Of a stretch of 64,000 bases of DNA, positions 4,882 to 32,168 are shown one piece after another. Each line of letters starts with the position of its first letter. The stretch's first letter is position 1. The DNA is from Streptomyces sp. NRRL B-24085 (GTDB lineage: Bacteria > Actinomycetota > Actinomycetes > Streptomycetales > Streptomycetaceae). The notes beneath the pieces are model-generated. The model saw nothing but the letters and a program-made list of their open reading frames with translations. It had not been told where the DNA came from and made no database searches. The translations under genes and the position numbers were made by a program. Where the stretch lies: positions 1-64,000 of the forward strand of contig NZ_LJBR01000022.1 of NCBI RefSeq assembly GCF_001282115.1, given 5' to 3'.

Positions 4882-5846
4882 GACGCCCCCTGATCGCCCT
4901 CGCCGCGGCGTGCGCCGCCCTCGCCCTGGCCGGCTGCGGAACGACCGAACCCGCCGCGACGGACACCGAGCCCAGCACCCGGAGCATCACCCTCACCGAC
5001 GCCACGGGCGCCAAGGTGACGCTCGACGGGCCCGCCGAGAAGGTCGTGGCCACCGAGTGGGACGTCGTCGAGCACCTCGTATCGCTCGGTGTCGCCCCCG
5101 TGGGCGTCGCCGACGTCAAGGGCTACACCGCCTGGGACGCCTCCGCCCCGCTGACCGGCACGCCCAAGGACATCGGCACCCGCGGCGAGCCCAGCACGGA
5201 CACCATCGCCTCGCTCTCCCCGGACCTCATCGTCGCCACCACCGACCTGACGCCCGCCGTCGTCACACAGCTGCGGAAGATCGCCCCCGTCCTGGAGATC
5301 CAGTCCGCCGACGCCTCCGACCAGATCGGCCGGATGAAGCAGAACCTCGACCTCATCGCCGAGGCCACCGGCACCACCGACAAGGCCACGAAGGTGAAGC
5401 AGGGCTTCGACGCCAAGATCACCGAGGGGAGGAAGGCCCTCGCCGACGCCCGTCTCGCCGGACACGGGATCGCCTTCGCCGACGCCTACGTCGCCTCCAA
5501 CCAGGTCTCGATACGGCCGTACACCAGCGGCTCGTTGATCGGCGACGTCAACGAGGCGGTCGGCCTGAAGAACGCCTGGACCGTCAAGGGCGACGCGAAG
5601 TACGGGCTCGCCACCACCGACGTCGAGGGCCTCAGCGGACTCGGCGACGTGACCTTCGCCTACATCGGCAACGACAGCGAGAGCGACCCGTTCACGACCG
5701 ACCTCGCCAAGAACGCCGTGTGGAAGGGCCTGCCCTTCGTGAAGAAGGGTGACGTGCACCGACTGCCCGACGGCATCTGGATGTTCGGCGGCCCCACCTC
5801 CATGGAGGCGTACGTGGACGCCCTGGTCGCCGCCCTCACGAAGTAG
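4878..5846 (+). CDS. Iron-siderophore ABC transporter, substrate-binding lipoprotein
   Basis: 322 residues, FecB/FepB-type periplasmic-binding fold (PF01497). The start ATG overlaps the stop of the ATPase gene. The N terminus is a lipoprotein signal with lipobox LAGC around residue 19, anchoring the mature protein outside the membrane. Typical family features follow: a beta strand with DATGAKVTL, then the EKVVATEW segment, a central helix with regularly spaced Lys/Gln (DQIGRMKQNLDLIAEATG), and a C-terminal lobe ending with VDALVAALTK. The ligand cannot be told from sequence. Translationally coupled upstream and four bases from the permease gene downstream. Confidence 0.92.
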   Translation: MRRPLIALAAACAALALAGCGTTEPAATDTEPSTRSITLTDATGAKVTLDGPAEKVVATEWDVVEHLVSLGVAPVGVADVKGYTAWDASAPLTGTPKDIGTRGEPSTDTIASLSPDLIVATTDLTPAVVTQLRKIAPVLEIQSADASDQIGRMKQNLDLIAEATGTTDKATKVKQGFDAKITEGRKALADARLAGHGIAFADAYVASNQVSIRPYTSGSLIGDVNEAVGLKNAWTVKGDAKYGLATTDVEGLSGLGDVTFAYIGNDSESDPFTTDLAKNAVWKGLPFVKKGDVHRLPDGIWMFGGPTSMEAYVDALVAALTK

Positions 5847-5850
5847 CGCC

Positions 5851-7917
5851 ATGACCGTCACCGCACCCGCCGCCCCCGCCGGCTCACCGACCACCGCGGC
5901 CAGGACCGGCGCGAGCGCGGTGACGGCCGCGCTCGTCGCCCTGGTCGCCGTGCTCGCGATCCTCGACATCACCCAGGGCACGGCGGCCGTCGGCACCTCC
6001 GAGGTGTTCAAGGCGCTCACCGGGCGCGCCGAGCCCGGCGACGCCTCGGTCGTGATCGCCTCACGGCTCCCGAGGGCGGCCGCCGGCCTCCTGGTGGGCG
6101 CCGCGCTCGGGATGGCCGGTGCGGCCCTGCAGGCCGTCAGCCGCAACGCGCTCGCCGCGCCCGACACCCTGGCCGTGAACGCCGGTTCGTACCTGGCGCT
6201 GGGGCTGCTCTCCGTCACCGGCGTGTCCCTGCCGCTGCTCGCGTCCTCCGGTGTGGCGTTCGCCGGCGGCCTGGCCGCCGCGGCCGTGGTCCTGTCCCTG
6301 TCCGGTCTGGGCGCGGGCACCGTCCGCCTCGTCCTCGCGGGCAGCGCCCTCACCCTCGGACTGACCTCGCTCACCGAGGGCCTCCTGCTGCTGTTCCCGC
6401 AGGAGACCGACGGCCTCTACCAGTGGAGCCAGGGCAGCATCAGCCAGAACGGCTTCGACGGCGTCGTCCAGATGACCCCCGTCGCCGCGCTCGCCCTGCT
6501 CGGCCTGCTGCTGGTGGCCCGGCGGGTCGACGCCCTGGCCCTCGGCGACCAGGCGGCGCACGGTCTCGGCGTCCCCGTCCGGGCCACCCGGATCACGGTC
6601 GTGGCCCTCGCCGCTCTGCTCTCCGCCGCGGCCGTCACCCTCGCCGGCCCGGTCGGATTCGTCGGCCTGTGCGCCCCCGCCCTCCTACGACCGCTCGCGC
6701 GACGTGTCCGCCCACTGGTCCGTGTCCGGCTGGGGCTGCCCGTGGCCGGACTGCTCGGCGCCGCCCTGGTGCTCGGTGCGGACGTGCTGCTGCGCGCGAC
6801 GGTCTCCGCCGACGCAGCGGTCGCCGTGCCCACCGGCGTCGTCACCAGCCTCCTGGGCGCGCTCTTCCTCGTCGGCATGGCCCGACGGGTCCGCGACACG
6901 GCCACCGCGAGCGCGCCGGAACAGTTGCGGATCGTGGGCCGGGCCGCCTATCTGGCCACTCTCGCGGCCCTGCTCGCCGCCCTCCTCGCCGTGACGGTCG
7001 CGGGAGTGCTCCTCGGCGACACCAAGCTGCTGCTGGGGGACGTCGTCAACTGGGCACGCGGTACGGCCGTCCCGTCCGTCTCGTTCGTGCTGGACACCCG
7101 TGTGCCACGGGTCCTGGCGGCGCTGCTCGCCGGTGCCGCCCTCGCCCTGTCCGGCACCCTGGTCCAGGCCGTCACCCGCAACCCGCTCGCCGAACCGGGC
7201 ATCCTCGGCGTCTCCGGGGGCGCGGCGCTCGGCGCCGTCCTGCTCGTCACCACCGCGTCCTCGCCCGGCTCCTGGGCCGTGGCCTGCGCGGCGTTCGCGG
7301 GAGCCGCGGTCACCGCCTCGGTCGTCTTCGGCCTGGCCGCGCGCGGCGGGTTCGGGCACTACCGGCTGGTCCTCGTCGGCGTAGGGGTGTCCGCCGCCAC
7401 CAGCGCCCTCATCAGCCTGCTGATCGTACTGACGGACCCCTTCAACGCCACCAAGGCCCTGACCTGGCTGTCCGGTTCGACCTACGGCCGTACCCTGCCC
7501 GACGGCCTGCCCGTCGCCGGCGCCCTCGTGCTGGGCGTCGCCGTGGCCGCGGTCCGTCGCACCGAACTGGACCTGGTCTCCCTCGACGACACCACGCCCG
7601 CGCTCCTGGGCCTGCGCCCGGGCCCGGCCCGCCTCGGCTTCCTCGCCACCGCCGTACTGCTCAGCGCCACCGCGGTGGCCGCGGCGGGCACCATCTCCTT
7701 CGTCGGTCTGATCGCCCCCCACGCGGCCCGCGCCCTCGTCGGCCGCCGCCACGCCCGCGTCCTGCCGACGGCGACCCTCCTCGGCGCGACCCTCGTGTGC
7801 ACGGCCGACCTCCTCGGCCGCACTGTCATCGCGCCGGCCCAGCTCGGCGCCGGCCTGATGACAGCGCTCATCGGTACGCCGTACTTCCTGTACCTGCTGG
7901 TGCGGACGCGGCGCTGA
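5851..7917 (+). CDS. Fused double FecCD siderophore permease (FhuB-like)
   Basis: 688 residues, twice the length of a single FecCD permease. Two homologous halves each carry the family blocks: LPRAAAGLLVGAALGMAGA near residue 73 and VPRVLAALLAGAALALSG near 417, each followed by a Q-A-V-S/T-R-N-x-L-A sequence. Conserved GPVGFVGL and GTISFVGLIAPH segments occur in the cytoplasmic loops that contact the ATPase. About 20 membrane helices are expected. One polypeptide therefore replaces the usual permease heterodimer, as in FhuB. The ATG is four bases after the lipoprotein stop. Last gene of the iron-box operon. Confidence 0.93.
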   Translation: MTVTAPAAPAGSPTTAARTGASAVTAALVALVAVLAILDITQGTAAVGTSEVFKALTGRAEPGDASVVIASRLPRAAAGLLVGAALGMAGAALQAVSRNALAAPDTLAVNAGSYLALGLLSVTGVSLPLLASSGVAFAGGLAAAAVVLSLSGLGAGTVRLVLAGSALTLGLTSLTEGLLLLFPQETDGLYQWSQGSISQNGFDGVVQMTPVAALALLGLLLVARRVDALALGDQAAHGLGVPVRATRITVVALAALLSAAAVTLAGPVGFVGLCAPALLRPLARRVRPLVRVRLGLPVAGLLGAALVLGADVLLRATVSADAAVAVPTGVVTSLLGALFLVGMARRVRDTATASAPEQLRIVGRAAYLATLAALLAALLAVTVAGVLLGDTKLLLGDVVNWARGTAVPSVSFVLDTRVPRVLAALLAGAALALSGTLVQAVTRNPLAEPGILGVSGGAALGAVLLVTTASSPGSWAVACAAFAGAAVTASVVFGLAARGGFGHYRLVLVGVGVSAATSALISLLIVLTDPFNATKALTWLSGSTYGRTLPDGLPVAGALVLGVAVAAVRRTELDLVSLDDTTPALLGLRPGPARLGFLATAVLLSATAVAAAGTISFVGLIAPHAARALVGRRHARVLPTATLLGATLVCTADLLGRTVIAPAQLGAGLMTALIGTPYFLYLLVRTRR

Positions 7918-11112: not shown

Positions 11113-11961
11113 TCAGTCGCGCGACCTGTGGACCTGCGTTTCGAGGAACCGCTGGACCACGGGGAGGACCGCGAAGTGGTTGTGGTCGGTGCCGGGCACG
11201 ATGTCGAGACGGGCGTCGATGCCGTGATCGCGCCAGTTGGCGCGCAGCGCGTTGATGCGTTCGACCCGGTCGGTCCCCGTGGCCGCGGACAAAGGCCCGT
11301 CGTCCGGGGCGAGTTCGGCCGAGTCGGTGTCGTCCTCGCCGACGACGAGTTGCACGGGAAGGCCGCGCAGGGCTGCCGGATCGGCGTCCGTCCCGAACTG
11401 CTCCTTCATGTCGGCCGTGCCGTGCCACCACGTCGTGCTGGGGTCGAGGAGGGTGACGCGCCCGGGCGCGCCCACCGACAGGCTCGCCAGCCGGTCCGGG
11501 TGGAGGTAGGCGAAGCGATGGGCGAACTGGCCGCCGCCGGAGAAGCCGTGGAGGTGGAAGCGGTCGGTGCGCACATGCCAGCGGGCCGCGACCTCGTCGA
11601 CCATGGCGAGGAGGACCTCGTCGGGGCGGAATCCGGCAGGGGACAGGAGCTTGTAGCTGTCCACGTCGTTCGGGCCGGTGATCCCGGCGGGGAAGAGCGG
11701 GACGAGGACGACGCAGTTGTGGCGTTCGGCGAAGTCGGCGAAGGCGTCGCGGAGTGTCTCGGCGCGGCGCCGCGTTCCGTGGACGGTGACCACCAGCGGG
11801 ACGGGCGGGCCGTCGGGGGCGTGCCCGGTGGGGACGTAGAGGCAGTAGGAGAAGCGGGGGTCGTCGGTGAGGGCGAAGAAAGCCGTGGGGCCGGTGAGGA
11901 AAGTGATCCCGGGGTGTCCGGCGGGCAGGTCCCAGGGAGCCAGGGGGCGTTCGGCGGTCAT
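11113..11961 (-). CDS. Cytoplasmic alpha/beta hydrolase of catabolic module 1
   Basis: 282 residues, no signal peptide. The nucleophile elbow HGFSGGGQFAHR puts the catalytic Ser near residue 148. VTVHGTRR upstream forms the HG oxyanion loop. The Asp in LVVGEDDTDS and the His in VPGTDHNHF complete the triad. The arrangement recalls the esterase/PHB-depolymerase-like (LpqC-type) group. Its ATG overlaps the stop of the DUF4387-like gene (ATGA), so it is the last gene of the GntR-controlled operon. It probably hydrolyses an ester or lactone formed in, or fed into, the pathway. It is unrelated in detail to the large secreted hydrolases elsewhere in this window. Confidence 0.82.
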   Translation of the reverse strand: MTAERPLAPWDLPAGHPGITFLTGPTAFFALTDDPRFSYCLYVPTGHAPDGPPVPLVVTVHGTRRRAETLRDAFADFAERHNCVVLVPLFPAGITGPNDVDSYKLLSPAGFRPDEVLLAMVDEVAARWHVRTDRFHLHGFSGGGQFAHRFAYLHPDRLASLSVGAPGRVTLLDPSTTWWHGTADMKEQFGTDADPAALRGLPVQLVVGEDDTDSAELAPDDGPLSAATGTDRVERINALRANWRDHGIDARLDIVPGTDHNHFAVLPVVQRFLETQVHRSRD

Positions 11962-12290
11962 GCGTGCTGCTCCTTGTCCGCGTCGCTCACGGCGAGGTCC
12001 ATCAACGGGGCGTACTGCTGGCCCGCGTAGCAGTCGCTGTCGCGCAGGTCGCCCTGGACCGTCGGGCGGGGGAGGGAGACCTTCACGGCGAGAGCCAGCG
12101 GGTGGTTGACGAGCAGGATGTCGGCGGGGTCGGCGCCGTAGAGGTCGGCGAAGAGTTGCCTGTTGAGGAAGCCGCCGGCGACGAGGGCGTCATAGGCGGC
12201 CTGGTCGTGGCACATGAAGTCGAAGGTGAGGGTGAAGGGGCCGGCGTTCTTGGAACGCACGAGGGAGCAGTAGTCGAGCAGAGTGGTCAT
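11958..12290 (-). CDS. DUF4387-like small partner protein of AtuA (module 1)
   Basis: 110 residues. It carries VRSKNAGPF near residue 11, shared exactly with the partner protein of module 2 at 33547, and a common layout (LYGxDxxD, then VKxSxPRP near residue 80). This matches the DUF4387 family, small proteins usually encoded beside AtuA-family proteins. No catalytic motif is recognisable; a subunit or partner role for the AtuA-like protein is inferred from the strict pairing. Three bases separate it from the AtuA stop and it overlaps the hydrolase start, so all three are translationally coupled. Confidence 0.82.
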   Translation of the reverse strand: MTTLLDYCSLVRSKNAGPFTLTFDFMCHDQAAYDALVAGGFLNRQLFADLYGADPADILLVNHPLALAVKVSLPRPTVQGDLRDSDCYAGQQYAPLMDLAVSDADKEQHA

Positions 12291-12293
12291 GGG

Positions 12294-13655
12294 TCACAGC
12301 TCCTCGGTGGTGGTGCGGAACAATTCCGTGGGACTGACGCCGGTGACGACGTGGTTGAGGGTGAACCGGTAGAGGGGGCCCCGGTCCGTCTCGGGCGGGG
12401 AGTACGGGTAGGCGAGAGTAGAGACCAGCCCGTCGTATTCCGGGATGGGCAGGTGGCTGCTGGCATGCGCGACGAAGGTGGCGACCGCGTGGGCGGTTGC
12501 CTGGTCGGGCGCCGTCACCGTGATGAGGACACCGAGTTCGCGGGGATGCAGCGGTTCCGGTTCCGCGGCGGCCAGTACCGCCCCGTCGCCGTAGAGGCGG
12601 AAGTCGATGTCGACGTCGTCGGGGTCCACGGTGCCGCCGAACACGTCGAGGATCTTGTCCGCGAAGTACTTCTGGGCGAAGGGGAGCAGGTCGGGCAGGC
12701 GCCGGATGACCACCTGGTCGCGCACTCCTCCGACGATGACGGTCTGGTAGCCGACGAGTTGGGCTCCTTCGAGCTTGTTGGTGTAGCCGTCCGCGGGGAC
12801 GAAGCGTGCTCCGCGCGCCCGGACGGTGCGTTCGTCGACCGCCTCGTAGGTGGCTTCGCTGGTGTCGAGGACGCCCGAGGGTTCCGCGACGTGATACGGG
12901 TCGGCGTTCTCGTACAGCGTGTGGGCGGCCACGGAGCGCGGGGTGAGGCGGCTGCCTTCGGCGAGCGTGGTGACGTCGAAGTGGTCGTCCCGCAGGTGTA
13001 CGAGCAGGCCGTTGGCGGAGGGGGGTATGGCGCAGGCCGCGCCGCATTCGATGGTCTTGGCCATGTGCCAGGTCAGACCGGGATCGGCGCCGAGCATGCG
13101 GGGGAGCGCGGCGAAGAGCGCGGTGTCGCTGGCGCGTCCGGCCAGGACGACGTCGCAGCCGGCTGCCAGGGCCTCCTGGATGGGCTCGACACCCATCATG
13201 GCCACGGTGTGACTGCGGGTGAACAGCTCCCGGTCGATCTCGGGGGCGTGCGGCAGCGGGCGGAGCCGTCCGGCGTCGTAGAGCTGCTGGAGCCGCTCGC
13301 CCGGCTGGTCGGAGTAGATCAGCGCCAGTTTGAAGTGCAAGTCCTCCGCCGCCGCGATGTCGCGCACGAGGGCGGCCACGCGGTCGACTCCCGTGTCACG
13401 GCCGCTGGTGCCGCAGGACCCGATGATCAGTGGCACGCCCAGCTCGTCGCGGGCCTTGAGCAACAGGCGCAGGTCGCGGGCGACGGCCTGGTCGGAGAGT
13501 TTGGGGTGTCCCGAGCCGAGCGCGGCCGGACCCGAGTCGGTCGATCCGGCGTCACACGCGATGACGTGCGGGCGGGCCTCGACGCCGCGTCGGAAGGCGG
13601 CGGCGTCGAAGCCGGCGCCGAGTGCACCGGTCGGTGCGAGGATGCGCAGTTCCAT
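12294..13655 (-). CDS. AtuA-family (DUF1446) protein, module 1
   Basis: 453 residues from an ATG (MELRILAPTGALGAGF). Family signatures: DAGSTDSGP near residue 35, GSCGTSGRDTGVDR near 78, VVLAGRASDTALF near 170, and IECGAACA near 200. The homologue at 32169 shares every one of these blocks. AtuA was named from the acyclic terpene (citronellol/geraniol) utilisation cluster of Pseudomonas, but its reaction is not established, and the CoA-carboxylase and dehydrogenase genes of that pathway are absent here. I therefore infer only a role in breakdown of an organic acid-type compound. It sits between the MFS importer and the DUF4387-like partner. Confidence 0.85.
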   Translation of the reverse strand: MELRILAPTGALGAGFDAAAFRRGVEARPHVIACDAGSTDSGPAALGSGHPKLSDQAVARDLRLLLKARDELGVPLIIGSCGTSGRDTGVDRVAALVRDIAAAEDLHFKLALIYSDQPGERLQQLYDAGRLRPLPHAPEIDRELFTRSHTVAMMGVEPIQEALAAGCDVVLAGRASDTALFAALPRMLGADPGLTWHMAKTIECGAACAIPPSANGLLVHLRDDHFDVTTLAEGSRLTPRSVAAHTLYENADPYHVAEPSGVLDTSEATYEAVDERTVRARGARFVPADGYTNKLEGAQLVGYQTVIVGGVRDQVVIRRLPDLLPFAQKYFADKILDVFGGTVDPDDVDIDFRLYGDGAVLAAAEPEPLHPRELGVLITVTAPDQATAHAVATFVAHASSHLPIPEYDGLVSTLAYPYSPPETDRGPLYRFTLNHVVTGVSPTELFRTTTEEL

Positions 13656-13687: not shown

Positions 13688-15022
13688 TCAGTGCGTGGAA
13701 GGCGCGATGCGGCGGGCCAGGCGGGTGAAGACGGCGAAGGTGACGGTGGCGAACACCGCGCCGTTCAGGAGCATGAAGCGCCAGCCGGTCGCGTCGACAG
13801 TGAGGCCGAGCAGGGCGGGGCCGAGCGCCGCGCCGGTGGACGAGGCGACGGTGTACAGGCCGGTGTAGGTGCCCAGGACATGTCTGCTGGGGGCGAGGTT
13901 CCACAGCGCGACGAGGGCGTTGACGGCGAAGGACGCGTAGCCCACGGAGGCGATCGCCATGGAGACGACCGTGCCGGGAACCGTGGGGACGCAGAATCCG
14001 ATGAGCAGACCGATGATGAAGACGCCGACGCCGTAGCGCATGGCGCGCACCTGGCCCAGACGGGACGAGGTGTAGGCGAGCGGGACGACACAGAGCAGGA
14101 AGGCGACGGCGCCGGGGAGGGCGAGTCCGCCGGCCGAGCCGCGGGACAGGCCGAGGGACTCGGTGCCGTACGGCGTCAGCAGCGCGCGCAGGGCCGACCA
14201 CATGCCGGCGAAGCAGAAGATGCCGAGCATGAGCAGGGCCCGGGCGCGGGACGGGTCGCGCGCCATGTCCCTGATGACGGCCCAGGGTGAGGCGAAGTCG
14301 TCGGAGGGCGGTGTGACGCGGGGGCGCGGTTCGGCGGCGGAAGCCGGCTCGGTGGGCGACGGCTTGGCGGTGCGGTGCCGGCGGCCCAGGAAGAACCAGG
14401 ACGTGGCGAGAAGGAGCAGCATGAGGACGGGCGGGATGGCGAACGCCAGGGTGATGCTGCGGTCTACGACGAGAAGGCTGATCAGGGACGAGACGACGAT
14501 CGTGAGACTGACGCCCGCCTTGACGAATCCCTGTGCCTTGCCTCGCTGGGAAGGGGCGACGTAGTCGGAGACCAGGGTCTCCGTGATGCCCTTGAACGCG
14601 TTGGCCATGGCCGCGAAGCCGATGACGCACAGCAGGAGCAAGGGCAGACTGTGCGTCCAGGGGATCAGGGCGAAGGGCACCGAGGCCAGGGCGGCTCCGG
14701 TCAGGATGATCGCCCACCGGCCCTTTCCGTCGCGTGCGCGACGGTCGGACAGGAACCCCGTCCAGGGCTGGATCAGGACCCCGAGCAGGTTGTCCATACC
14801 CATGATCAACCCGACCAGGCCGGCCGAGGCGATGTAGTGCCGCAACTCGGAGGGGACCTGCGCGTCGTAGAAGTTCCAGACCGATTCCTGGGCGAAGACG
14901 GCCAGGGTCACCCACAGGACCGTCGTGGCGCTCATCCGCCGTGGGGTGGCTGGCCCTTTCTCGACCGGGGTGCTTGCGGGGGTGTCCTCCAGAGGCTCGG
15001 GCTGAGGTGCGATGTGGGGCAT
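13688..15022 (-). CDS. MFS transporter of module 1
   Basis: 444 residues from an ATG with AAAGGAG seven bases upstream; an ATG 24 bp earlier lies inside the operator and lacks this signal. Twelve membrane helices are expected. The N terminus LAVFAQESVWNFYDAQVP and the following MGMDNLLGVLIQPWTG are nearly repeated in the MFS of module 2 (29805). The family resembles GPH-type or sugar/acid importers more than drug pumps, and import of the pathway substrate is the natural reading. First structural gene after the GntR regulator, with palindromes directly upstream. Confidence 0.85.
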   Translation of the reverse strand: MPHIAPQPEPLEDTPASTPVEKGPATPRRMSATTVLWVTLAVFAQESVWNFYDAQVPSELRHYIASAGLVGLIMGMDNLLGVLIQPWTGFLSDRRARDGKGRWAIILTGAALASVPFALIPWTHSLPLLLLCVIGFAAMANAFKGITETLVSDYVAPSQRGKAQGFVKAGVSLTIVVSSLISLLVVDRSITLAFAIPPVLMLLLLATSWFFLGRRHRTAKPSPTEPASAAEPRPRVTPPSDDFASPWAVIRDMARDPSRARALLMLGIFCFAGMWSALRALLTPYGTESLGLSRGSAGGLALPGAVAFLLCVVPLAYTSSRLGQVRAMRYGVGVFIIGLLIGFCVPTVPGTVVSMAIASVGYASFAVNALVALWNLAPSRHVLGTYTGLYTVASSTGAALGPALLGLTVDATGWRFMLLNGAVFATVTFAVFTRLARRIAPSTH

Positions 15023-15037
15023 GGCGGCTCCTTTGCC

Positions 15038-15053
15038 ATATGCCATAGCATAT
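15038..15053 (-). promoter_or_regulatory. GntR operator, copy 1 (before the MFS gene)
   Basis: atatgc-cata-gcatat is a perfect 6+4+6 palindrome 16 bp upstream of the MFS start. Read on the minus strand it contains ATGCTATGGCAT, sharing the TGCTA(T/C)(A/G)GC core with the two other copies nearby. Confidence 0.65.
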
Positions 15054-15122
15054 TCATTCTAAGTCACCCCGCCTGCCGGTCGGTCGCCGAGGCGGAAGTG
15101 CGCAGGTTTGCGTCCCCCGCCT

Positions 15123-15139
15123 AGCTATTTGCTATAGCT
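15123..15139 (-). promoter_or_regulatory. GntR operator, copy 2
   Basis: agctat, 5-nt spacer, atagct is a perfect inverted repeat located between the GntR gene and the MFS gene. It contains ATTTGCTATAGC, matching copy 3 at 11 of 12 positions. Confidence 0.6.
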
Positions 15140-15181
15140 CAAGCGGTAGTGGGTGACCAATGCGGTGGCGGCTTCCTTCTC

Positions 15182-15901
15182 TCAGTGCGAGAAACGCGCC
15201 GTGAGCAGGGAGGAACTCGACGACCGGCTGTGCGCGGTCATCAGCTCTTCCGCCCGCCTGCCGTCTCCGGCGGCGATGGCGTCGTAGATGGCGCGGTGCT
15301 GGTGGTAGCGCGCATCCACGGCGCTGCGCCGTTCGTCGCTGACCTCGGACAGGACGCTGTCGCGTCGTTCGTCCGCGCCGAAGGCGTCGACCATGTGCAG
15401 CATCTGCAGGAGTGTGGCGTTCCCGCTGGCCTCGTCCACCAGGCCGTGGAACCGCCGCATGCAGTGCAGGATCTCCTCGATCAGCTTCCGCTCCTCCTCG
15501 CTGCCGGGAGCCAGTCCGGCCGCCCGGCCGCGCAGGCGGTCCGCCTCGTCCAGGGCGGCACGCATCCGCGCCCGCTGCTCCGCGGTCGACTTCTCCGCGG
15601 CCAGCCGGGCGGCCAGAGCGCGAAGCGAGTCCCCGATCATGGAGAACTCCCGCAACTCCTCGTCCGCGTACTTCGCGATGCGCACGGACCGCGGGCCGGT
15701 CCTCTCCACCAGCCGGTCCTGCTCCAGCCGGCGCAACGCCTCACGTACCGGTGTCGCGCTGATGTCGAGGGATTCGGCCAGCCCCCGCTCGGTCACCTTC
15801 TGGCCCCGTTCGAGGACGCCCGAGACGATCGCCTCACGGATCGCCGTGTACGCCTGATCGCCCAGGGTCGCGGAGATCGTGAGCTGCGGAAGCTGTGCCA
15901 T
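15182..15901 (-). CDS. GntR-family regulator (FadR/FCD type) of module 1
   Basis: 239 residues from an ATG (MAQLPQLTISATLGDQAY); the frame stays open upstream but the extension runs through the operator. The N-terminal winged helix is clear: YTAIREAIVSGVLERGQKV, then LAESLDISATPVREALRRLE (about residues 42-61). The C-terminal all-helical FCD domain has the metal-ligand His pattern (MRRFHGLVDEASGN, RYHQHRAIYDAI, LMTAH). FCD proteins usually sense small organic acids bound to a metal. It is encoded just upstream of its presumed targets on the same strand, with one candidate site in its own promoter and two before the MFS gene. Confidence 0.88.
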   Translation of the reverse strand: MAQLPQLTISATLGDQAYTAIREAIVSGVLERGQKVTERGLAESLDISATPVREALRRLEQDRLVERTGPRSVRIAKYADEELREFSMIGDSLRALAARLAAEKSTAEQRARMRAALDEADRLRGRAAGLAPGSEEERKLIEEILHCMRRFHGLVDEASGNATLLQMLHMVDAFGADERRDSVLSEVSDERRSAVDARYHQHRAIYDAIAAGDGRRAEELMTAHSRSSSSSLLTARFSH

Positions 15902-15912
15902 GGGCAGTACGG

Positions 15913-15926
15913 TATTTGCTACAGCA
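15913..15926 (-). promoter_or_regulatory. GntR operator, copy 3 (autoregulatory)
   Basis: tatttgctacagca lies 12 bp upstream of the GntR ATG and shares ATTTGCTA(T/C)AGC with copy 2. Its position suggests autorepression. Confidence 0.55.
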
Positions 15927-16146
15927 GAATTGTCAACCGGTTGCGGGCATGTGAGTTCCGACCGAGTCCTGGCGGCAGGCGAAGGCCACCACCGGACAAC
16001 CGTCAAGGAACGCTCAGCTTCACGGCGGGCCGACCGTCAAGTGCCGTCTGAATGATGGGCCGGGACATCCCGGAATCCGGTCAGGGCCTCAGCGCCCGGC
16101 CGGACGGGCGGTGACGGCAGGGCTGTCGGACCGAGAAGAAGGCCCC

Positions 16147-16827
16147 GTGAACAAGGTGATCGTCGCAGGCGGGCCGTCCCTGGTACGGACGGCGCTGACC
16201 AGGGTGATCGATGCGAGCGACACCCTGAGGGCGGTCGGCACCGCCGCCCACAGCGAGGAACTCGCAGACCTGCTCGACGCCGACGTCGACGCGGACGTCG
16301 TCCTCCTCGACCGCTCCCTCCACACCGGGCGACAGGGCGGCTTCACGGCCCTGGTGACCGAGATCTGCGCCGTGACCCGGACCGTCGTCTTCGGCGCTCC
16401 CAGCGCTCAGGAGGTCGATGCCCAGGTGCGTGCCGGCGCCACAGGTGTCCTCGGCGCGGATGTCAGCGCCGCCCAGCTCGTCGCCGCGCTGGAGACCGTG
16501 TGCCGGGGTGGGCTCGTCGTCGCCCTGGGCACGGCACCGGCCGTCAACAGGGCACAGGCTCGGGTCACGCCCGAACTCACCCGGGACCTCTCCGTCCGGG
16601 AACGCGAGATCCTCATCTTGCTGTCGAGCGGTCAGGACACTGCCTCCATCGCCCGCGACCTCGGTCTCAGCCCCCTCACCGTGAAGACCCACATCACCAA
16701 CATGCTGAGCAAGCTGGGAATCCGCCGACGCGGACACCTGATCGCCTTCGCCTACGAGAGCGGGCTGATCGTGCCGGGCATCACACCCACCAGTTTCATC
16801 CCGCCCCCGCTGTGCGCACCTTCGTAG
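16147..16827 (+). CDS. Atypical LuxR-type response regulator
   Basis: 226 residues from a GTG with GAAGAAGG four bases upstream; another GTG at 16111 is less well placed. The N-terminal half is receiver-like with the expected phospho-acceptor in VVLLDRSL. The paired acidic residues that normally follow strand 1 are replaced by Gly (VIVAGGPSL), and the conserved Lys near the receiver end is missing (GVLGAD). The C-terminal helix-turn-helix is a canonical LuxR/GerE domain (LSVREREILILLSSG, then LSPLTVKTHITNMLSKLGI). No histidine kinase gene is adjacent. Output is probably independent of classical phosphorylation. Confidence 0.85.
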   Translation: MNKVIVAGGPSLVRTALTRVIDASDTLRAVGTAAHSEELADLLDADVDADVVLLDRSLHTGRQGGFTALVTEICAVTRTVVFGAPSAQEVDAQVRAGATGVLGADVSAAQLVAALETVCRGGLVVALGTAPAVNRAQARVTPELTRDLSVREREILILLSSGQDTASIARDLGLSPLTVKTHITNMLSKLGIRRRGHLIAFAYESGLIVPGITPTSFIPPPLCAPS

Positions 16828-19036: not shown

Positions 19037-20452
19037 TCAAGGGCGACGGCCGCGCGGGAGCCGGATGGTGACGGTGGTTCCGACCCCCACCTGCGAGTCC
19101 ACGTCCACCTGTCCGTGGTGGGCGTGGACGATGGCTTCCACGATGGCCAGGCCGAGACCGGAACCGCCGTACGCGCGGCTGCGGCTGGCCTCCGCGCGCC
19201 AGAAACGCTCGAAGACGCGGGGCAGGTCCTCGGCCGCGATTCCCGGGCCGTCGTCGACGACACTCAGTTCCACGGTCTCCCGGCTCAGGGCGACCTCGAC
19301 GCGCACGGCGGTCTGAGCCGGAGTGTGCTGGACCGCGTTGCCGACGAGGTTGCGCAGGACCTGTTGCAGACGGGCGGCGTCGCCGACGACGGCGGCAGGC
19401 GGTGCGGGTGCCATGGCGATGTCGCGCTGGGGGTAGATGATCTGGGCGTCCTCGACGACGCCGGCGGCCAGGACGGTGATGTCCACGTCGTCCTGCTCGA
19501 CCGGGCGGCCGGCGTCCAGGCGGGCGAGCAGTGCGAGATCCTCCACGAGCAGGCGCATCCGCCCCACTTCGTTCTCGATGTGCTCGAGCGCGGTCTCCAG
19601 GCCCGGTCCGGAAAGGCCGCCCTGGCGGTGCAGGTCGAGCCAGCCGGAGATGGTGGACAGGGGAGTGCGCAGTTCATGGGAGGTGTCGGCGGCCAGCGAG
19701 CGGACGGTCGCCTCCGCTCGGGCCTGCGCGTCGAACGCCCGGTTGACCGCCTTGGCCAGCAGGTCGGCCTCGCTGCCGTTGCGATGGGTGGGCAGCCGTT
19801 CGGTCAGGGAGCCCGCGGCGATGGCGTCGGCGCTGCGGGCCATACGGGCGAGCGGGCGCATGCCCAGCCGCAGAACCACGACGGACAGCCCGAGCAGCAC
19901 CAGTAACGCGCCGCCGATCAATGCCAGTTGGCGTCCGATGAGCGCGTCGGTGGTGGCGTCGTCGACGGATGTGTCGATGGTGAGGATGACGGCCGCCGGT
20001 GCCACGGTGCCTTCAGCGGGCCCGCGGTCGATGACCAGTCCGGGGCTCGGGATGCGTACGGCGCTGAGATCACCGCCCTCCACGGTGACCACACTTCCCG
20101 TCGGCGCCGTCGCGCTGAAGGCGGCCACCTCGGTGGCGGCCCGGGACGCTGAGCCGGTGCTCAGCAGGACCCTGTTGTCCTCGTCGACGGCCACCGTGCC
20201 CAGGGGCGAGCCGAGAAGTGCGCCGAGCTGGTCGGCGTCGGCGGTCTGCGGTCCCTGACGGATGACCCGCGCCAGGCGCGCCGCGTTGGCCTTGAGGGTG
20301 TCCTCGTTGCGTCGGTCCAGGAAGTCCTCCAGGAGAAAGGCGCTGATGACGGCGCTGGCGACAAGGCCGACGACGAGGAGGACCGCCAGGCCGGCGAGCA
20401 GGCGCAGACGGACGCTGGAGGAGGCCCAGGGAAGACGGCCGCTCAGTCTCAT
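19037..20452 (-). CDS. Sensor histidine kinase (two-component system 1)
   Basis: 471 residues from an ATG overlapping the regulator stop (ATGA). Two membrane helices (about residues 13-38 and 175-197) flank an extracellular sensor loop of roughly 135 residues. A HAMP domain follows (RPLARMARSADAIAAGSLTERL). The phospho-acceptor is the His in DTSHELRTPLSTI. The catalytic domain shows the N box (NLVGNAVQHTP), G1 (VVDDGPGI), F box (FERFW) and G2 (GSGLGLAIVEAI). It phosphorylates the OmpR-type regulator encoded immediately upstream. The MMPL exporter upstream on the same strand is the likely target or partner. The signal is unknown. Confidence 0.92.
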   Translation of the reverse strand: MRLSGRLPWASSSVRLRLLAGLAVLLVVGLVASAVISAFLLEDFLDRRNEDTLKANAARLARVIRQGPQTADADQLGALLGSPLGTVAVDEDNRVLLSTGSASRAATEVAAFSATAPTGSVVTVEGGDLSAVRIPSPGLVIDRGPAEGTVAPAAVILTIDTSVDDATTDALIGRQLALIGGALLVLLGLSVVVLRLGMRPLARMARSADAIAAGSLTERLPTHRNGSEADLLAKAVNRAFDAQARAEATVRSLAADTSHELRTPLSTISGWLDLHRQGGLSGPGLETALEHIENEVGRMRLLVEDLALLARLDAGRPVEQDDVDITVLAAGVVEDAQIIYPQRDIAMAPAPPAAVVGDAARLQQVLRNLVGNAVQHTPAQTAVRVEVALSRETVELSVVDDGPGIAAEDLPRVFERFWRAEASRSRAYGGSGLGLAIVEAIVHAHHGQVDVDSQVGVGTTVTIRLPRGRRP

Positions 20453-21171
20453 GTGTCGTCCTGCTCTCGGAGGGTGTAGCCGACGCCGCGCACGGTACGC
20501 AGCAGCGGCGTCCGGCCCTGGTCGATCTTGCGCCGCAGGTTGGAGACGAAACGCTCGACGACCACGGAGTCCCCGCCGAAGTCGTACTGCCACACGGCCT
20601 CCAGGATCTGGGCGCGGGAGAGGACCTGCCCCTGGTGACTGAGCAGGTAGTGCAACAGCCGGTACTCGGTGGGAGACAGTTCGACGAGCTGTCCGCCCCG
20701 GCGGACCTCGTGACGCAGGTCGTCGAGCGTGAGGTCGTCACAGGACAGGCGTGTCTCCTCGGCGGCGGCGGGCGCTCCGCCCCGGGCGCGGCGCAGCAGG
20801 GCCTGCAGGCGGGCGCCGACCTCGACGACGCTGAAGGGTTTGGTGACGTAGTCGTCGCCTCCCAGGCGCAGCCCTCGTACGCGGTCCTCGACGGCGTCGC
20901 GCGCGGTGAGGAAGAGGACGGGGACGTCGATGGCACGGGAGCGCAGGAGTTGGAGGATCTCGAAGCCGTCGGCGCCGGGGAGCATCACGTCGAGGACGAT
21001 GACGTCCGGAGGGCGGCGGGCGACCTGGTCGAGGGCCTCGCTCAGGTCGCCGGCCGTTTCGACGTCGAATCCGGCGAACTCCAGTGCCGAGATCAGCAGG
21101 CGCCTGATACCGGGATCGTCGTCGACGACGAGGACGCGGTCGGCGGTGGCCGGCGTGTTGTCGGCGTTCAT
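20449..21171 (-). CDS. OmpR-type response regulator (two-component system 1)
   Basis: 240 residues from an ATG with AGGAG upstream; a longer in-frame start at 21264 adds only a low-complexity Pro/Ala stretch. The receiver domain is complete: acidic DDD in VLVVDDDPG, phospho-acceptor Asp in VIVLDVMLPG, Thr in FLTARD and Lys in DDYVTKPF. A winged-helix output domain ends the protein (VELSPTEYRLLHYLL, VWQYDFGGDSVVVERFVSNLRRKI). Translationally coupled to the kinase and 100 bp downstream of the MMPL gene, so the three probably form one operon. Confidence 0.93.
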   Translation of the reverse strand: MNADNTPATADRVLVVDDDPGIRRLLISALEFAGFDVETAGDLSEALDQVARRPPDVIVLDVMLPGADGFEILQLLRSRAIDVPVLFLTARDAVEDRVRGLRLGGDDYVTKPFSVVEVGARLQALLRRARGGAPAAAEETRLSCDDLTLDDLRHEVRRGGQLVELSPTEYRLLHYLLSHQGQVLSRAQILEAVWQYDFGGDSVVVERFVSNLRRKIDQGRTPLLRTVRGVGYTLREQDDT

Positions 21172-21271
21172 GTGTGCTCCTGGTGGCGGCAGCGGAAGAC
21201 CGGGGTCTGCCGCTGCCGCCGGTGGGGCCGATCCGGGTGTCCCGGTAGCGGCGCTGCTGGTCATGGTGTGG

Positions 21272-23536
21272 TCACAGGTGTGCGGGGGTTGATTCCTTGG
21301 CGGGGGCGTGCGGGGCCGCCGGCCGGGGGGCGTGGAAGTTCTCGCCCTCGACGTCGAGACGGGGCAGCACCCGGTCGAGGCGTCGTGGCAGCCACCAGGC
21401 CCGGTCCCCGAGGAGCGCCAGCACCGCCGGCACCAGGGTCATGCGGACCAGGAAGGCGTCCACCATGACTCCGAAGGCCAGGGCGAAGGCGATCGGCATG
21501 ATGTCGGCGTCGTGGGAGAACAGGAAGCTGACGAACACCGAGATCATGATGAGTGCCGCAGAAGCTACCACACGGGCGGAGTTGCGGGCCCCGTTGAGGA
21601 TGGCCGCGCGGGCGTCACGGTGGCGGTTGTAGTCCTCCCGTACGGCGGAGACGAGGAACACCTCGTAGTCCATGGCCAGCCCGAAGAGCACGGACATCAC
21701 GATGATGGGCACAAAGCTGGCCACCGGGCCCTCGCTGGGTACGCCCAGCACTCCGGCCAGCCAGCCCCACTGGAAGACCGCGACGGTGGCACCGAAGGCG
21801 GCGCCCACGGACAGCAGGAACCCGAGGGTCGCCTTGACCGGGATGGCGATCGACCGGAAGGCGATCATCAGCAGGAGCAGGGAGAGGCCGACGACGACGA
21901 TCACGAACGGCACGAGCGCGCCGCTGAGCTTGTCGGAGACGTCGATGCTGACCGCGGTCATACCGGTGACGGCCACGTAGGAGCCGCTGGACTGTGCCAG
22001 TGGCTGCATCTGGGTGCGCAGCCGGGCCACGAGGCCGCTGGTCTCCTCGGACCGCGGTCCGCTCTCGGGGATGACCTGGATCCTGGCCGCCGTGGCGTCC
22101 TCGGCCAGGTCGACACCGCTGACGTCCGCGATGCCGTCGACCTTCCCGAGCTCGTCCTCGACGGCGGCGGCCGTGGAGTTGGCGGTGGCGGGGTCGTCGT
22201 TCTCGACGAGTACGACGAGGGGGCCGTTGGCGCCGGGACCGAAGGCGTCACCGATCACGTCGTAGGCCTGGCGGCTGGAACTGCTCGTGTCGCTGGAACC
22301 CTCGTCGGTGAGCGCCAGCTTCAGCTCCATGCCGGGAACGGCCAGGGCGATCAGCACGGCGGTTCCCAGGATGAGGTTGCGCACAGGGTGGCGCAGCACG
22401 CCCTCGGTCCAGCGCACGCCCATCGTGGCCGTCCGGCCGTCGTGTGCCGCCGACCTCATGGCGCGCCTACGGCCGATCAGGGGCAGGAACCGGCGGCGCC
22501 GGACCGCTGCCCGGGGTGCCCGGAGTGCTCGGGGGGTGAGCCGGTGGCCGGCCATCGCCATCAGGGCGGGCAGCAGGGTCAGGGCGGTGATCACGGCGAC
22601 GGCGACCGCTCCCGCCGAGGCCAGTCCCATCGAGGTAAGCATCGGTACGCCGGCCACCGACAGACCGGCGAGCGCGATCAGGACGGTGGCTCCGGCGAAC
22701 ACGACGGCGCTGCCCGCGGTGGCGGTGGCCCTGGCGATGGACTCCTTGACCGGCATACCCGCACCCAGTTGGGCGCGATGGCGGGAGACGATGAACAGGG
22801 CGTAGTCGATACCGACGGCGAGCCCCAGCATGATCGCCAGGGTGGGCGCGTTGTCGGAGACGTCGAACACCGTGGCCAGGCCCATCATCGCGGCCACCGT
22901 TCCGACGATGCCGAGAATCGCGGTGAGCAGGGGCAGACCGGCGGCGAGGAGCGACCCGAACGTGATCACCAGGATGATCAGCGCCACGCCCAGACCGAGC
23001 AGTTCACCGGGCCCCACGGGCGGGTGCGAGGTCTCGTACGGCTCACCGCCGTAGATGGTCCGCAGGCCTGCCCGCTCCGCCGACGCCCCGGCGGCCCTCA
23101 CCGCGTCCAGCGTGCCCTCCGGCACGTCGTCGGCCTCCTTGGTGGTGAACGTGACCTCGGCCACCGCGGTGCGCCCGTCCCCGGAGACGGTGTCGTCCCG
23201 CGCCGGGTCGCTGACCTCGCTCACCCCCGGCACGCGGCCCGTGGCGTCCAGGGTGGCCTTCAGGGAGTCCCGCAGATCCGGCTCGGTCACCTTGTGCCCA
23301 GCCGGCGCCTGGAACACGATCCGCGCCGACTGCGCATCGGGCTCGGGGAAGTGCCGTTCCATCTTCGTCAGCGCCGTCTGGGCCGGGGAGCCGGGAATGG
23401 AGCTGCTGTCGGCGAAGGAGCCGGCGAAGGAAACCCCGAGACCGACCACCGCGAGGAGGCCCAGGAGCCACCCGGTCAACATCGTGCGCCAACGGCGAGC
23501 GCCGAACGCGCCCAGCCGGTACAAGAGCGTAGCCAT
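21272..23536 (-). CDS. MMPL-family RND-type membrane exporter
   Basis: 754 residues from an ATG preceded by GAGGGA; a GTG five codons earlier is weaker. Two homologous halves each have one N-terminal helix, a large extracellular loop and a bundle of five helices. TM4-like motifs GLAVGIDYALFIVSRHR near residue 240 and GLAMDYEVFLVSAVREDY near 620 carry the conserved Asp-Tyr pair of proton-driven MMPL transporters. Family members export lipids, siderophores or hydrophobic metabolites. First gene of a probable operon with a two-component system; the substrate is not evident. Confidence 0.9.
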   Translation of the reverse strand: MATLLYRLGAFGARRWRTMLTGWLLGLLAVVGLGVSFAGSFADSSSIPGSPAQTALTKMERHFPEPDAQSARIVFQAPAGHKVTEPDLRDSLKATLDATGRVPGVSEVSDPARDDTVSGDGRTAVAEVTFTTKEADDVPEGTLDAVRAAGASAERAGLRTIYGGEPYETSHPPVGPGELLGLGVALIILVITFGSLLAAGLPLLTAILGIVGTVAAMMGLATVFDVSDNAPTLAIMLGLAVGIDYALFIVSRHRAQLGAGMPVKESIARATATAGSAVVFAGATVLIALAGLSVAGVPMLTSMGLASAGAVAVAVITALTLLPALMAMAGHRLTPRALRAPRAAVRRRRFLPLIGRRRAMRSAAHDGRTATMGVRWTEGVLRHPVRNLILGTAVLIALAVPGMELKLALTDEGSSDTSSSSRQAYDVIGDAFGPGANGPLVVLVENDDPATANSTAAAVEDELGKVDGIADVSGVDLAEDATAARIQVIPESGPRSEETSGLVARLRTQMQPLAQSSGSYVAVTGMTAVSIDVSDKLSGALVPFVIVVVGLSLLLLMIAFRSIAIPVKATLGFLLSVGAAFGATVAVFQWGWLAGVLGVPSEGPVASFVPIIVMSVLFGLAMDYEVFLVSAVREDYNRHRDARAAILNGARNSARVVASAALIMISVFVSFLFSHDADIMPIAFALAFGVMVDAFLVRMTLVPAVLALLGDRAWWLPRRLDRVLPRLDVEGENFHAPRPAAPHAPAKESTPAHL

Positions 23537-23623
23537 CAAAGATTCCCTCACTGTGCGGAAGACGACCCGTCACATCCTTCTGAGGGGACTTGACGACCGC
23601 CGCACGCGGAACTTGAGGGTTTT

Positions 23624-23650
23624 CTGACGGTTAGGCTCCGGTGCCGTCAG
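23624..23650 (-). terminator. Weak hairpin after the LysR gene
   Basis: ctgacgg and ccgtcag (7 bp perfect) enclose a 13-nt loop that overlaps the LysR stop codon at 23647-23649. On the minus strand it is followed by AAAACCC, not a U tract. It may separate the LysR transcript from the MMPL operon. Confidence 0.4.
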
Positions 23651-24651
23651 GCAGGCCGGGCACCGGACAGGGGCCGGCCGGTGCCCGGGGTGACCGCCGA
23701 CTGATCCCCGGCGTGGTCCAGTCGCAGCGGGAGCCGCGCGGCGAGGTGGTCGATGAGGGCGCTGACGCGTCGCGGGACATGCCCGTCCTCCTCCAGGAGG
23801 GCGTAGATGTCGGCGGCCGGTGTCGACAGGTGCGGCAGGACCCGCACGAGCTCGCCGCGCTCCAGATGCGGCCTGACATGCCACTCCGAGCGCATGATCA
23901 CACCACGGCCCTCCAGGGCCCAGCCGGTCACCACGTCACCGTCGTTGCTGGACAGGCTGCCGTGCACCCGCACATGCCGGGGGCGGTCCGCGTCCCCGAA
24001 GCGCCAGAGCGCGAAGTCGCTCTCGTTCTCCCGCAGCACGATGCAGTTGTGCCGGGCCAGGTCCTCGATGCTGTCCGGGGTGCCGTGCTCGGCGAGGTAG
24101 GACGGCGCCGCGCACGGCACGCGCCGGTTCCTGGCCAGCCGCCGCATGCGCAGCGAGGAGTCGGGCGGCATGCCCACATGCACGGCCACGTCGAACTCAC
24201 GCCGGTGGGGCCGCAGCGGCAGCGCGGACGTCTGCAACCGGACGTGCAGTTCCGGGTGGGCCGCGGCGAACTCGCCGAGCAGTGGCGCGATGTGCGCGCG
24301 ACCGAGACCGAGCGTGGCCTCGACGACCACGGACCCGCGCAAGCCCCCGGCCGTGTCGGTGATCGTGTCCTCCAGCTCGCGCACCTGGTCCAGGATCGCC
24401 TCGACGCGCGCCGCGTAGAGCTCGCCCTCCGACGTGAGCACGAGTCGGCGGGCACCGCGCTGCACGAGCCGGACGTCCAGGCGGCGCTCCAGCGCGCTGA
24501 GGCGCTTGCTGACGACGGGCAGCGAGCAGCCGAGTTCTCGCGACGCGGCGGTCAGCGTCTCGCTCGACGCGACCACGTGGAAGAACTGCAGGTCGTCCAC
24601 GGCTGAACGGCTCTTGGAGGAGGGGCGACCAGAACGCCGGGGGCTTTCCAT
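23647..24651 (-). CDS. LysR-family transcriptional regulator of module 2
   Basis: 334 residues. The helix-turn-helix spans about residues 20-75: DDLQFFHVVASSETLTAASR, then SLPVVSKRLSALERRL. A periplasmic-binding-type effector domain follows (RGSVVVEATLGLGRAHIAPLL onward). The first 17 residues (basic and Ser-rich) precede the usual family start, so a GTG at 24600 is a possible alternative. Transcribed divergently from the tartrate/malate-type dehydrogenase with a 148-bp intergenic region, the standard LysR arrangement; it is expected to activate the large plus-strand cluster in response to a pathway intermediate. Confidence 0.88.
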   Translation of the reverse strand: MESPRRSGRPSSKSRSAVDDLQFFHVVASSETLTAASRELGCSLPVVSKRLSALERRLDVRLVQRGARRLVLTSEGELYAARVEAILDQVRELEDTITDTAGGLRGSVVVEATLGLGRAHIAPLLGEFAAAHPELHVRLQTSALPLRPHRREFDVAVHVGMPPDSSLRMRRLARNRRVPCAAPSYLAEHGTPDSIEDLARHNCIVLRENESDFALWRFGDADRPRHVRVHGSLSSNDGDVVTGWALEGRGVIMRSEWHVRPHLERGELVRVLPHLSTPAADIYALLEEDGHVPRRVSALIDHLAARLPLRLDHAGDQSAVTPGTGRPLSGARPA

Positions 24652-24662
24652 GGGGGAAAACG

Positions 24663-24711
24663 TACCTTGCCATTAACGCCCTTGTAACGACTGTCACCGC
24701 TGGCCAAGGTA
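24663..24711. promoter_or_regulatory. Divergent control region between LysR and dehydrogenase genes
   Basis: The inverted arms taccttg (24663-24669) and caaggta (24705-24711) flank the middle of the intergenic gap. No classical short T-N11-A box stands out. Binding by the LysR protein is plausible from position only. Confidence 0.35.
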
Positions 24712-24799
24712 GGACCCAGCCGCGCCGTGACCGGAATGCCTCTGGACGGAGTGCCCGTCACCGGCCTTGCGCATCAATCCGTGGACTGGGAGTGAACTC

Positions 24800-25957
24800 G
24801 TGCCGCACAGCTATCGCATCGCAGCGATTCCGGGCGACGGGATCGGACGCGAGGTCGTCCCGGAGGGGCTGCGGTGCCTGCGGGCCGCAGCCGAGACGCA
24901 CGGGTTCGCACTCGACGTCACCGAGTTCGACTTCGCCAGCGCCGACTACTGGTTGAAACACGGCACGATGCTGCCGGAGAACTGGCGAGACGTACTCGGA
25001 GAGTTCGACGCGATCTTCTTCGGCGCGGTCGGATGGCCGGAGGTGGTCCCGGACCATGTCTCGTTGTGGGGCAGCCTGCTCCAGTTGCGCCGGGGCTTCG
25101 ACCAGTACGTCAATCTGCGTCCCGTCCGGCTGCTGCGCGGTGTGCGCAGTCCGCTGCGTGACCACCAGCCGGGCGACATCGACTTCTACGTGGTGCGGGA
25201 GAACACCGAGGGGGAGTACTCCAGCATCGGCGGCCGGATCTTCGAGGGCACCGACCGCGAGACGGTGGTGCAGGAGACGGTCATGACGCGCACCGGCGTC
25301 GACCGTGTCCTGCGCTACGCCTTCGAACTCGCCTCGTCCCGGCCGGGCAAGCACCTGACGTGGGCGACGAAGAGCAACGGGATCTCGATCTCCATGCCCT
25401 ACTGGGACGAGCGCGCGACCGAGATGGCCGCCCGGTACCCCGAGGTGACCGCGGACAAGGACCACATCGACATCCTGACCGCGAAGTTCGTCCTCCAGCC
25501 CGACCGGTACGACGTGGTGGTCGCCAGCAACCTGTTCGGCGACATCCTCTCCGACCTCGGCCCGGCCTGCACCGGGACGATCGGCATCGCGCCCAGCGCG
25601 AACATCAACCCCGACCGCTCCTTCCCCAGTCTCTTCGAGCCGGTGCACGGTTCGGCTCCGGACATCGCCGGTCTCGGTGTCGCCAACCCTGTCGGGCAGA
25701 TCTGGAGCGGCGCCATGATGCTCAGCCACCTCGGCGAGCACGAGGCGGCCGCGCACGTCGTGGCCGCGATCGAGAGCGTTCTGGACGAGCGGCCCGAGGT
25801 GGTCACCCCCGACCTCGGGGGCACGGGGACCACCGTCGGGCTCGGCAAGGCCATCGCGGCGCGGATCACCGCGGGCTCCCCCGCCGGCCCCGGCGGGGGA
25901 GCGACGACCGGTGACGCCGCCGGCCACGCGGTCGAAGAGGGGGTCGCGGCGTCATGA
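24800..25957 (+). CDS. Tartrate/D-malate dehydrogenase-like beta-decarboxylating dehydrogenase
   Basis: 385 residues from a GTG with GGGAG seven bases upstream. Belongs to the isocitrate/isopropylmalate dehydrogenase superfamily: IPGDGIGREVVPEG at the N terminus, VRENTEGEYS near residue 130, the metal-binding NLFGDILSDLGP near 250, and EPVHGSAPDIAG near 285. The sequence around FYVVRENTEGEYSS and ATKSNGI resembles tartrate dehydrogenase and D-malate dehydrogenase. Expected to oxidise a 2-hydroxy-dicarboxylic acid with NAD and Mn or Mg, often with loss of CO2. The C terminus has a Gly/Ala-rich tail of about 20 residues. First gene of the module 2 operon; overlaps the next by ATGA. Confidence 0.85.
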   Translation: MPHSYRIAAIPGDGIGREVVPEGLRCLRAAAETHGFALDVTEFDFASADYWLKHGTMLPENWRDVLGEFDAIFFGAVGWPEVVPDHVSLWGSLLQLRRGFDQYVNLRPVRLLRGVRSPLRDHQPGDIDFYVVRENTEGEYSSIGGRIFEGTDRETVVQETVMTRTGVDRVLRYAFELASSRPGKHLTWATKSNGISISMPYWDERATEMAARYPEVTADKDHIDILTAKFVLQPDRYDVVVASNLFGDILSDLGPACTGTIGIAPSANINPDRSFPSLFEPVHGSAPDIAGLGVANPVGQIWSGAMMLSHLGEHEAAAHVVAAIESVLDERPEVVTPDLGGTGTTVGLGKAIAARITAGSPAGPGGGATTGDAAGHAVEEGVAAS

Positions 25958-29702: not shown

Positions 29703-29804
29703 ACCGTCCGGCGACCGGTCCGGGGAACGGCCTCCCCCCACGCCAACACCGACAAACCATCCAGTAGCTGCCCGATATGGTGGCGGCGTGAAGGGACGAC
29801 CCTT

Positions 29805-31079: not shown

Positions 31080-31139
31080 CCGCCCATCCCCGCAGCGCGG
31101 CGCGCGCCCAGCGCCAGACGCGGCCAGAGACGAGGAACC

Positions 31140-32126: not shown

Positions 32127-32168
32127 CACCCGCCCGCCACGTGCCCGGTACCGACAAGAAAGAGGAAC

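Follow-up and report, generated by a model that had tools for sequence, protein, structure and literature searches.

In a 64,000-nt stretch of the genome of Streptomyces sp. NRRL B-24085 (hereafter the window), three short and similar sequences lie around a gene for a GntR-type regulator and the MFS-AtuA operon next to it. The question raised by this locus is whether these sequences are the binding sites of that regulator and how far the corresponding regulon extends, both within this genome and in related actinomycetes.

Sites in the window and in the whole genome

The three sequences named in the original prediction were all present by direct reading: atatgccatagcatat at 15038–15053, agctat-ttgct-atagct at 15123–15139, and tatttgctacagca at 15913–15926. 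The proposed core TGCTA(T/C)(A/G)GC also fits each of these sequences, in the case of the first as TGCTATGGC on the minus strand. A single 16-base palindrome, ATTTGCTATAGCAAAT, is common to these candidate operators, designated here O1, O2, and O3, and each of them deviates from its ideal form at three of the 16 letters. On the minus strand, O1 (15914–15929; TTCTGCTGTAGCAAAT; 24.6 bits) is located in the gntR promoter; O2 (15127–15142; TTGAGCTATAGCAAAT; 23.2 bits) between gntR and the MFS gene, 112 nt upstream of the MFS start; and O3 (15038–15053; ATATGCTATGGCATAT; 25.5 bits) 5' of the MFS ribosome-binding site (AAAGGAG, 15028–15034, minus strand; GGCAAAGGAGCC is conserved in relatives). The minus-strand order of O1, gntR, O2, O3, and the genes for MFS, AtuA, DUF4387, and an alpha/beta-hydrolase agrees with the prediction of two sites before MFS-AtuA and one before gntR.

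The frame of the second repeat had to be shifted. The predicted agctat-N5-atagct is present as a sequence, but the site aligned to the palindrome is O2 as delimited above, and the predicted repeat is composed of half of O2 plus an extra half-site 7 bp off, which is likewise conserved. This extra half-site, TAGC, extends to position 15124 on the minus strand. Both O2 and O3 of the window possess such an addition 7 bp from one half (GCTATAGCAAATAGC and GCTATGGCATATGGC). Among 95 distinct sites, GC at the 7-bp offset on either side was found in 35, vs. 3 to 27 at nine other offsets. Extra half-sites at 7–12 nt from the site centre are known for the GntR family (PMC4494728).

The source genome comprises 8,963,402 bases in 692 contigs. 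With up to three mismatches allowed, the complete 8.96-Mb sequence contains three matches to ATTTGCTATAGCAAAT, namely O1, O2, and O3, and one match to its reversed control. Thus, the motif is not scattered over the genome, and at this threshold the regulon is local. For the 14-base core TTTGCTATAGCAAA, also at up to three mismatches, three matches were found in the window vs. 0.04 expected, and none of 100 shuffles reached three. The matrix behind the bit scores given above was derived from 33 sites at other loci, after exclusion of the seven loci most similar to the window (84–95% identity); the next place in the window scored 9.7 bits, and the top score over 60 first-order simulated windows was 17.6 bits.

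The suggestion that the motif could serve as a search pattern for other regulon members was borne out in part. The whole-genome scan at three mismatches or fewer revealed no wider regulon in strain NRRL B-24085, since this genome has only the three sites; across species, the search did lead to further members near gntR.

Conservation of the sites across actinomycetes

Relatives of the regulator were detected in 19 of 293 genomes of the order at E ≤ 1e-20, including that of the window itself, and the species collection contributed 27 loci; the closest ones belong to Streptomyces. The two sources were pooled to give 38 distinct gntR upstream regions. A site of at least 14 bits within 90 nt was present in 36 of these 38 regions, down to 38% protein identity, in members of the genera Streptomyces, Nonomuraea, Thermocatellispora, Actinomadura, and Acrocarpospora. 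Phylogenetic footprinting over five genera strongly supports the prediction that the repeats are sites of the adjacent GntR. Locus L010 has a 13-bit site 5' of gntR, with the promoter boxes intact. L021, the most divergent of the homologues compared (34% identity), lacks a site in its gntR upstream region, and the recognition helix of its regulator differs from that of the window GntR.

The gntR promoter of the window consists of a –35 box, TTGACA (15931–15936, minus strand; at least five of six letters in 31 of 36 relatives), and a –10 box, TACCGT (15909–15914, minus strand; TANNNT there in 24 of 36), separated by 16 nt. The ATG follows 7 nt after the –10 box, which suggests a leaderless gntR message. 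Across the gntR upstream regions, the TTGACA box lies no more than 14 nt before the site in those 31 cases, TANNNT stands exactly at the site end in those 24, and both are combined in 23 of 36. The distance from the site centre to the gntR start codon is 20 nt in 22 of the 38 regions and 19 nt in three. In most gntR upstream regions, then, the operator occupies the promoter spacer between –35 and –10. Exceptions are L041, L042, and L020, with a site before gntR and no TTGACA box, and the Acrocarpospora loci (L044–L048), where the –10 box, if present, is located elsewhere.

The paired sites on the MFS side are conserved in close relatives, most of which also retain the extra half-site beside O2 and O3. 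Ten loci, including the window, carry two sites 5' of a gntR-adjacent MFS gene. In seven of the ten, a distance of 24 nt separates the centre of O3 from the start of the MFS gene; at L027, L098, and L026, where this start was only estimated from the homology match, the values are –6, 12, and 0, respectively. The position of O2 in the ten loci varies from about 40 to 164 nt upstream of the MFS start. No conserved –35 and –10 boxes were found at O2 and O3 among the compared relatives. DNA looping of fixed phase between the two sites is unsupported, given that relatives differ widely in the O2–O3 distance (40 to 152 bp).

Two further arrangements were observed. At locus L030 (Streptomyces olindensis, approximately 5720–6013), the MFS gene is absent (no tblastn match) except for a short remnant of its start; both operators and the AtuA and DUF4387 genes are retained. 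Loci L082, L083, L084, and L099 show a window-like layout of two sites 5' of a gene for an ABC binding protein, i.e., another type of transporter, with one site in a TTGACA promoter approximately 200–250 nt upstream and one just before the ribosome-binding site.

The cross-species scan covered 33 genome handles with the regulator, a subset of the loci, of which G232 and G297 are apparently the same genome. The palindrome at three mismatches or fewer occurred at 72 places, vs. 41 for the reversed control; at least one place was found in 29 of the 33 genomes, and four had none at this threshold. Within about 20 kb of gntR lay 48 of the 72 places; one was at a second AtuA/gntR cluster, and the 23 located elsewhere showed no excess over the control. 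A phylum-wide scan at no more than one mismatch gave a match in 8 of 396 genomes.

A set of 38 loci, biased in that they were picked around gntR relatives or around palindrome matches, contained 95 sites scoring 16 bits or more, 17 of them without a marker gene in reach. With sites between divergent genes scored for both, the numbers near gene starts were 27 for gntR, 21 for MFS, 6 for AtuA, and 4 for gntR paralogues; ABC binding proteins of two types accounted for 16 and 4, MMPL proteins of two types for 7 and 2, and 2-hydroxyacid dehydrogenase, esterase, and tannase-like protein genes for 2 each. A regulator, an importer, and AtuA/DUF4387 form the common thread of these loci; some also hold genes for a 2-hydroxyacid dehydrogenase, an RraA-like aldolase, or an FAD dehydrogenase.

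In Nonomuraea and Thermocatellispora, the same operator also accompanies a second GntR-FCD paralogue, at or close to the beginning of that gene (L086, 2942; L088, 4774; L094, 9400; L095, 11390), so two paralogues may share sites. An MMPL transporter and an OmpR-type two-component system (19037–23551 in the window) are encoded near gntR in the window and in many relatives. The operator is present 5' of the MMPL gene in other species and absent before that of the window.

The operon and its probable regulator

The genes downstream of O2 and O3 are all on the minus strand. They encode an MFS transporter of 444 aa (13688–15022; Pfam MFS_1, E 5.9e-34), an AtuA-family protein of 453 aa (12294–13655), a DUF4387 protein of 110 aa (11958–12290; Pfam E 1.1e-28), and an alpha/beta-hydrolase resembling PHB depolymerase, LpqC, and poly(aspartic acid) hydrolase (11113–11961; 6ve6, E 1e-9; 3d0k, E 2.3e-9). 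The latter, whose Pfam match is under the cut-off (E 5.1e-4), is an esterase-like protein encoded by the last gene of the likely operon.

The only PDB match of AtuA at E ≤ 1 is chain A of 9erq/9evf, entitled 'Citramalate lyase, subunit A (cmlA)', which covers residues 3–438 of 453 (9erq_A, E 7.9e-86). For DUF4387, the best match is the other chain of this complex, chain B or 'subunit B (cmlB)', at E 1e-13 (9erq_B), the next match being at 0.31. The two genes are 3 nt apart. Both subunits of CmlA/CmlB have homologues encoded by adjacent genes of the operon in the window; the known pair is titled for citramalate, and that of the window is a predicted lyase of this type. No publication on the 9erq/9evf structure was found in a literature search for citramalate lyase, so this name rests on the title of the PDB entry. 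AtuA and DUF4387 are best read as the two subunits of a putative lyase that acts on citramalate or a hydroxy-acid like it. The name AtuA derives from terpene use. Since the two proteins match both subunits of one citramalate lyase complex, a hydroxy-acid is the likely inducer, not a terpene. Most likely, the inducer would be the substrate or a close C4–C6 (hydroxy)carboxylic acid; citramalate itself is the first, though tentative, candidate for this role.

Few genomes of the genus (12 of 150) contain a DUF4387 gene, and that of strain NRRL B-24085 has two copies, both in the window. The second belongs to a paralogous module at 23647–33852, in which no operator of the ATTTGCTATAGCAAAT type is present. 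It comprises a LysR-type regulator (23647–24651; best model TtdR, under its cut-off), a tartrate dehydrogenase (24767–25957, over the cut-off), hydantoinase B- and A-like proteins, a 2-hydroxyacid dehydrogenase, DUF4387, an MFS protein 44% identical to the first one over 403 aa, and an AtuA protein with 48% identity over 452 aa (9erq_A, E 1.9e-88). Control of the second MFS-AtuA-DUF4387 module (24767–33852) by the same sites was rejected: the best place, at 27679, scored 9.5 bits and lies inside the ORF of the hydantoinase A-like protein.

The regulator itself (239 aa; 15182–15901, minus strand) combines an N-terminal GntR winged helix-turn-helix (PF00392, E 6.7e-16) with a C-terminal all-helical FCD ligand domain (PF07729, E 1.3e-12), both over the cut-off. 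In 49 aligned sequences, in which the same genome is sometimes represented twice, His-152, His-202, and His-224 of the FCD metal site are conserved in 46, 49, and 47, respectively. Histidines of this kind are common in the FadR subfamily, and PMC6608401 gives TM0439 and HypR as examples of such a metal site. The conserved histidines would fit a carboxylate bound at the metal.

The likeness to the FadR subfamily, as outlined in PMC4494728, includes the GntR helix-turn-helix joined to FCD, a palindromic operator with A/T flanks, a site 5' of the regulator's own gene, and extra half-sites beside the palindrome. A palindromic operator near its own gene is a typical trait of this subfamily. The operator core differs: the subfamily consensus in that source is TKGT/ACMA with a GT/AC pair, whereas the core here is TGCT-AT-AGCA, and the box TGCT/AGCA lacks this pair. 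The pair is described there as common and not as defining, BioR and NanR being deviations. C and G occupy the GT/AC positions in 52 of 52 collected sites, a partly circular figure given that the sites were picked by likeness to the palindrome.

Arg-45 in the recognition helix of FadR contacts a G (Table 1 of PMC4494728). The matching residue is Ala-49 in the window GntR and Pro in many relatives; over the 49 sequences, Ala was found in 28 and Pro in 20, and Arg occurs once, in L021, whose gntR upstream region lacks a site. We hypothesize that the change at this position may be tied to the altered operator core. As a sufficient cause of the motif, Ala was rejected. A pattern search placed the recognition helix in 24 of 30 FCD matches of the same genome; 15 of these helices have Arg, 4 have Ala (the window GntR and three others), and 5 have other residues, including L128, which looks spurious. 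Since three other FCD proteins share Ala and the operator occurs nowhere else in the genome at up to three mismatches, this residue alone is insufficient.

Proposed mode of action and alternative explanations

Because the sites are unique in the genome and conserved before gntR relatives, O1, O2, and O3 are very probably operators of the adjacent GntR-FCD protein, through which it would repress its own gene and the MFS-AtuA-DUF4387-esterase operon. A GntR dimer on O1, between the –35 and –10 boxes, would exclude RNA polymerase from the gntR promoter, and GntR bound to O2 and O3 would prevent transcription from starting at the MFS gene or from reading through into it. A ligand in the FCD pocket would release the dimer and allow expression of the operon. 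The MFS protein may then take up the substrate, which AtuA and DUF4387 would cleave as a two-subunit lyase like CmlAB.

Several other explanations were weighed against this one. The sites are short, each with three mismatches to the ideal palindrome, and could in principle be alike by chance; their uniqueness in the genome, the shuffles, the simulated windows, and the conservation rule this out, and we give it practically no weight. Regulators other than GntR are encoded close by in the window, i.e., a LuxR-type (16111–16827), an OmpR-type (20449–21264), and the LysR-type protein (23647–24651), and one of them might bind the sites. This is quite improbable, as the site accompanies gntR in, e.g., the Acrocarpospora loci and L094, where no such marker gene was found (the marker sought being a response regulator only), and its distance to the start of gntR is 19–20 nt in 25 of the 38 regions. 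Even less probable is that the palindromes act in RNA as short leader hairpins: O3 is palindromic and stands directly 5' of a ribosome-binding site, but O1 would not be transcribed from the gntR promoter because it lies between –35 and –10.

GntR could also bind the sites and activate MFS-AtuA, or repress itself and activate the operon. The location of O2, well before the MFS start, is possible for an activator too, and some FCD regulators bind far upstream, according to the discussion of HypR in PMC6608401. We nevertheless consider activation unlikely; O3 stands between the promoter region and the ribosome-binding site and O1 within the promoter spacer, positions typical of repression.

Among the closest known systems is HypR of Streptomyces coelicolor (PMC6608401). 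HypR is likewise an FCD regulator of a Streptomyces with a nearby catabolic operon, and it is an auto-repressor with a site over its own –10 region. It differs from the window GntR in binding CTNTGC(A/C)ATGTCAC, in having further sites elsewhere in the genome, and in its link to hydroxyproline use. No description of the present operator, or of GntR control of AtuA/DUF4387, was found in the open literature searched. The operator set adds an ordinary, if new, case to a familiar type of gene switch, and its interest is moderate, residing in the link to citramalate lyase and in the unusual operator core. A broader reading, which we put forward with reservation, is that these regulators could form a GntR group with a DNA code of its own (TGCTATAGCA, Ala or Pro in place of the recognition-helix Arg that normally reads the G of GT/AC, and a nearly invariant GPR wing), which would control an inducible pathway of the citramalate-lyase type, coupled in several actinomycetes both to an MMPL exporter and to a two-component system.

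The comparison over five actinomycete genera backs this predicted regulator–operator pair, which has a clear promoter layout. The pair is a naturally occurring test case for DNA recognition by FadR-type regulators without the usual arginine, and it yields a concrete hypothesis on the ligand for genes whose family name still refers to terpene use. Should the inducer be confirmed, the pair could be used as a sensor for citramalate-type acids, and the AtuA/DUF4387 pairs of soil actinomycetes would be tied to the breakdown of hydroxy-dicarboxylates.
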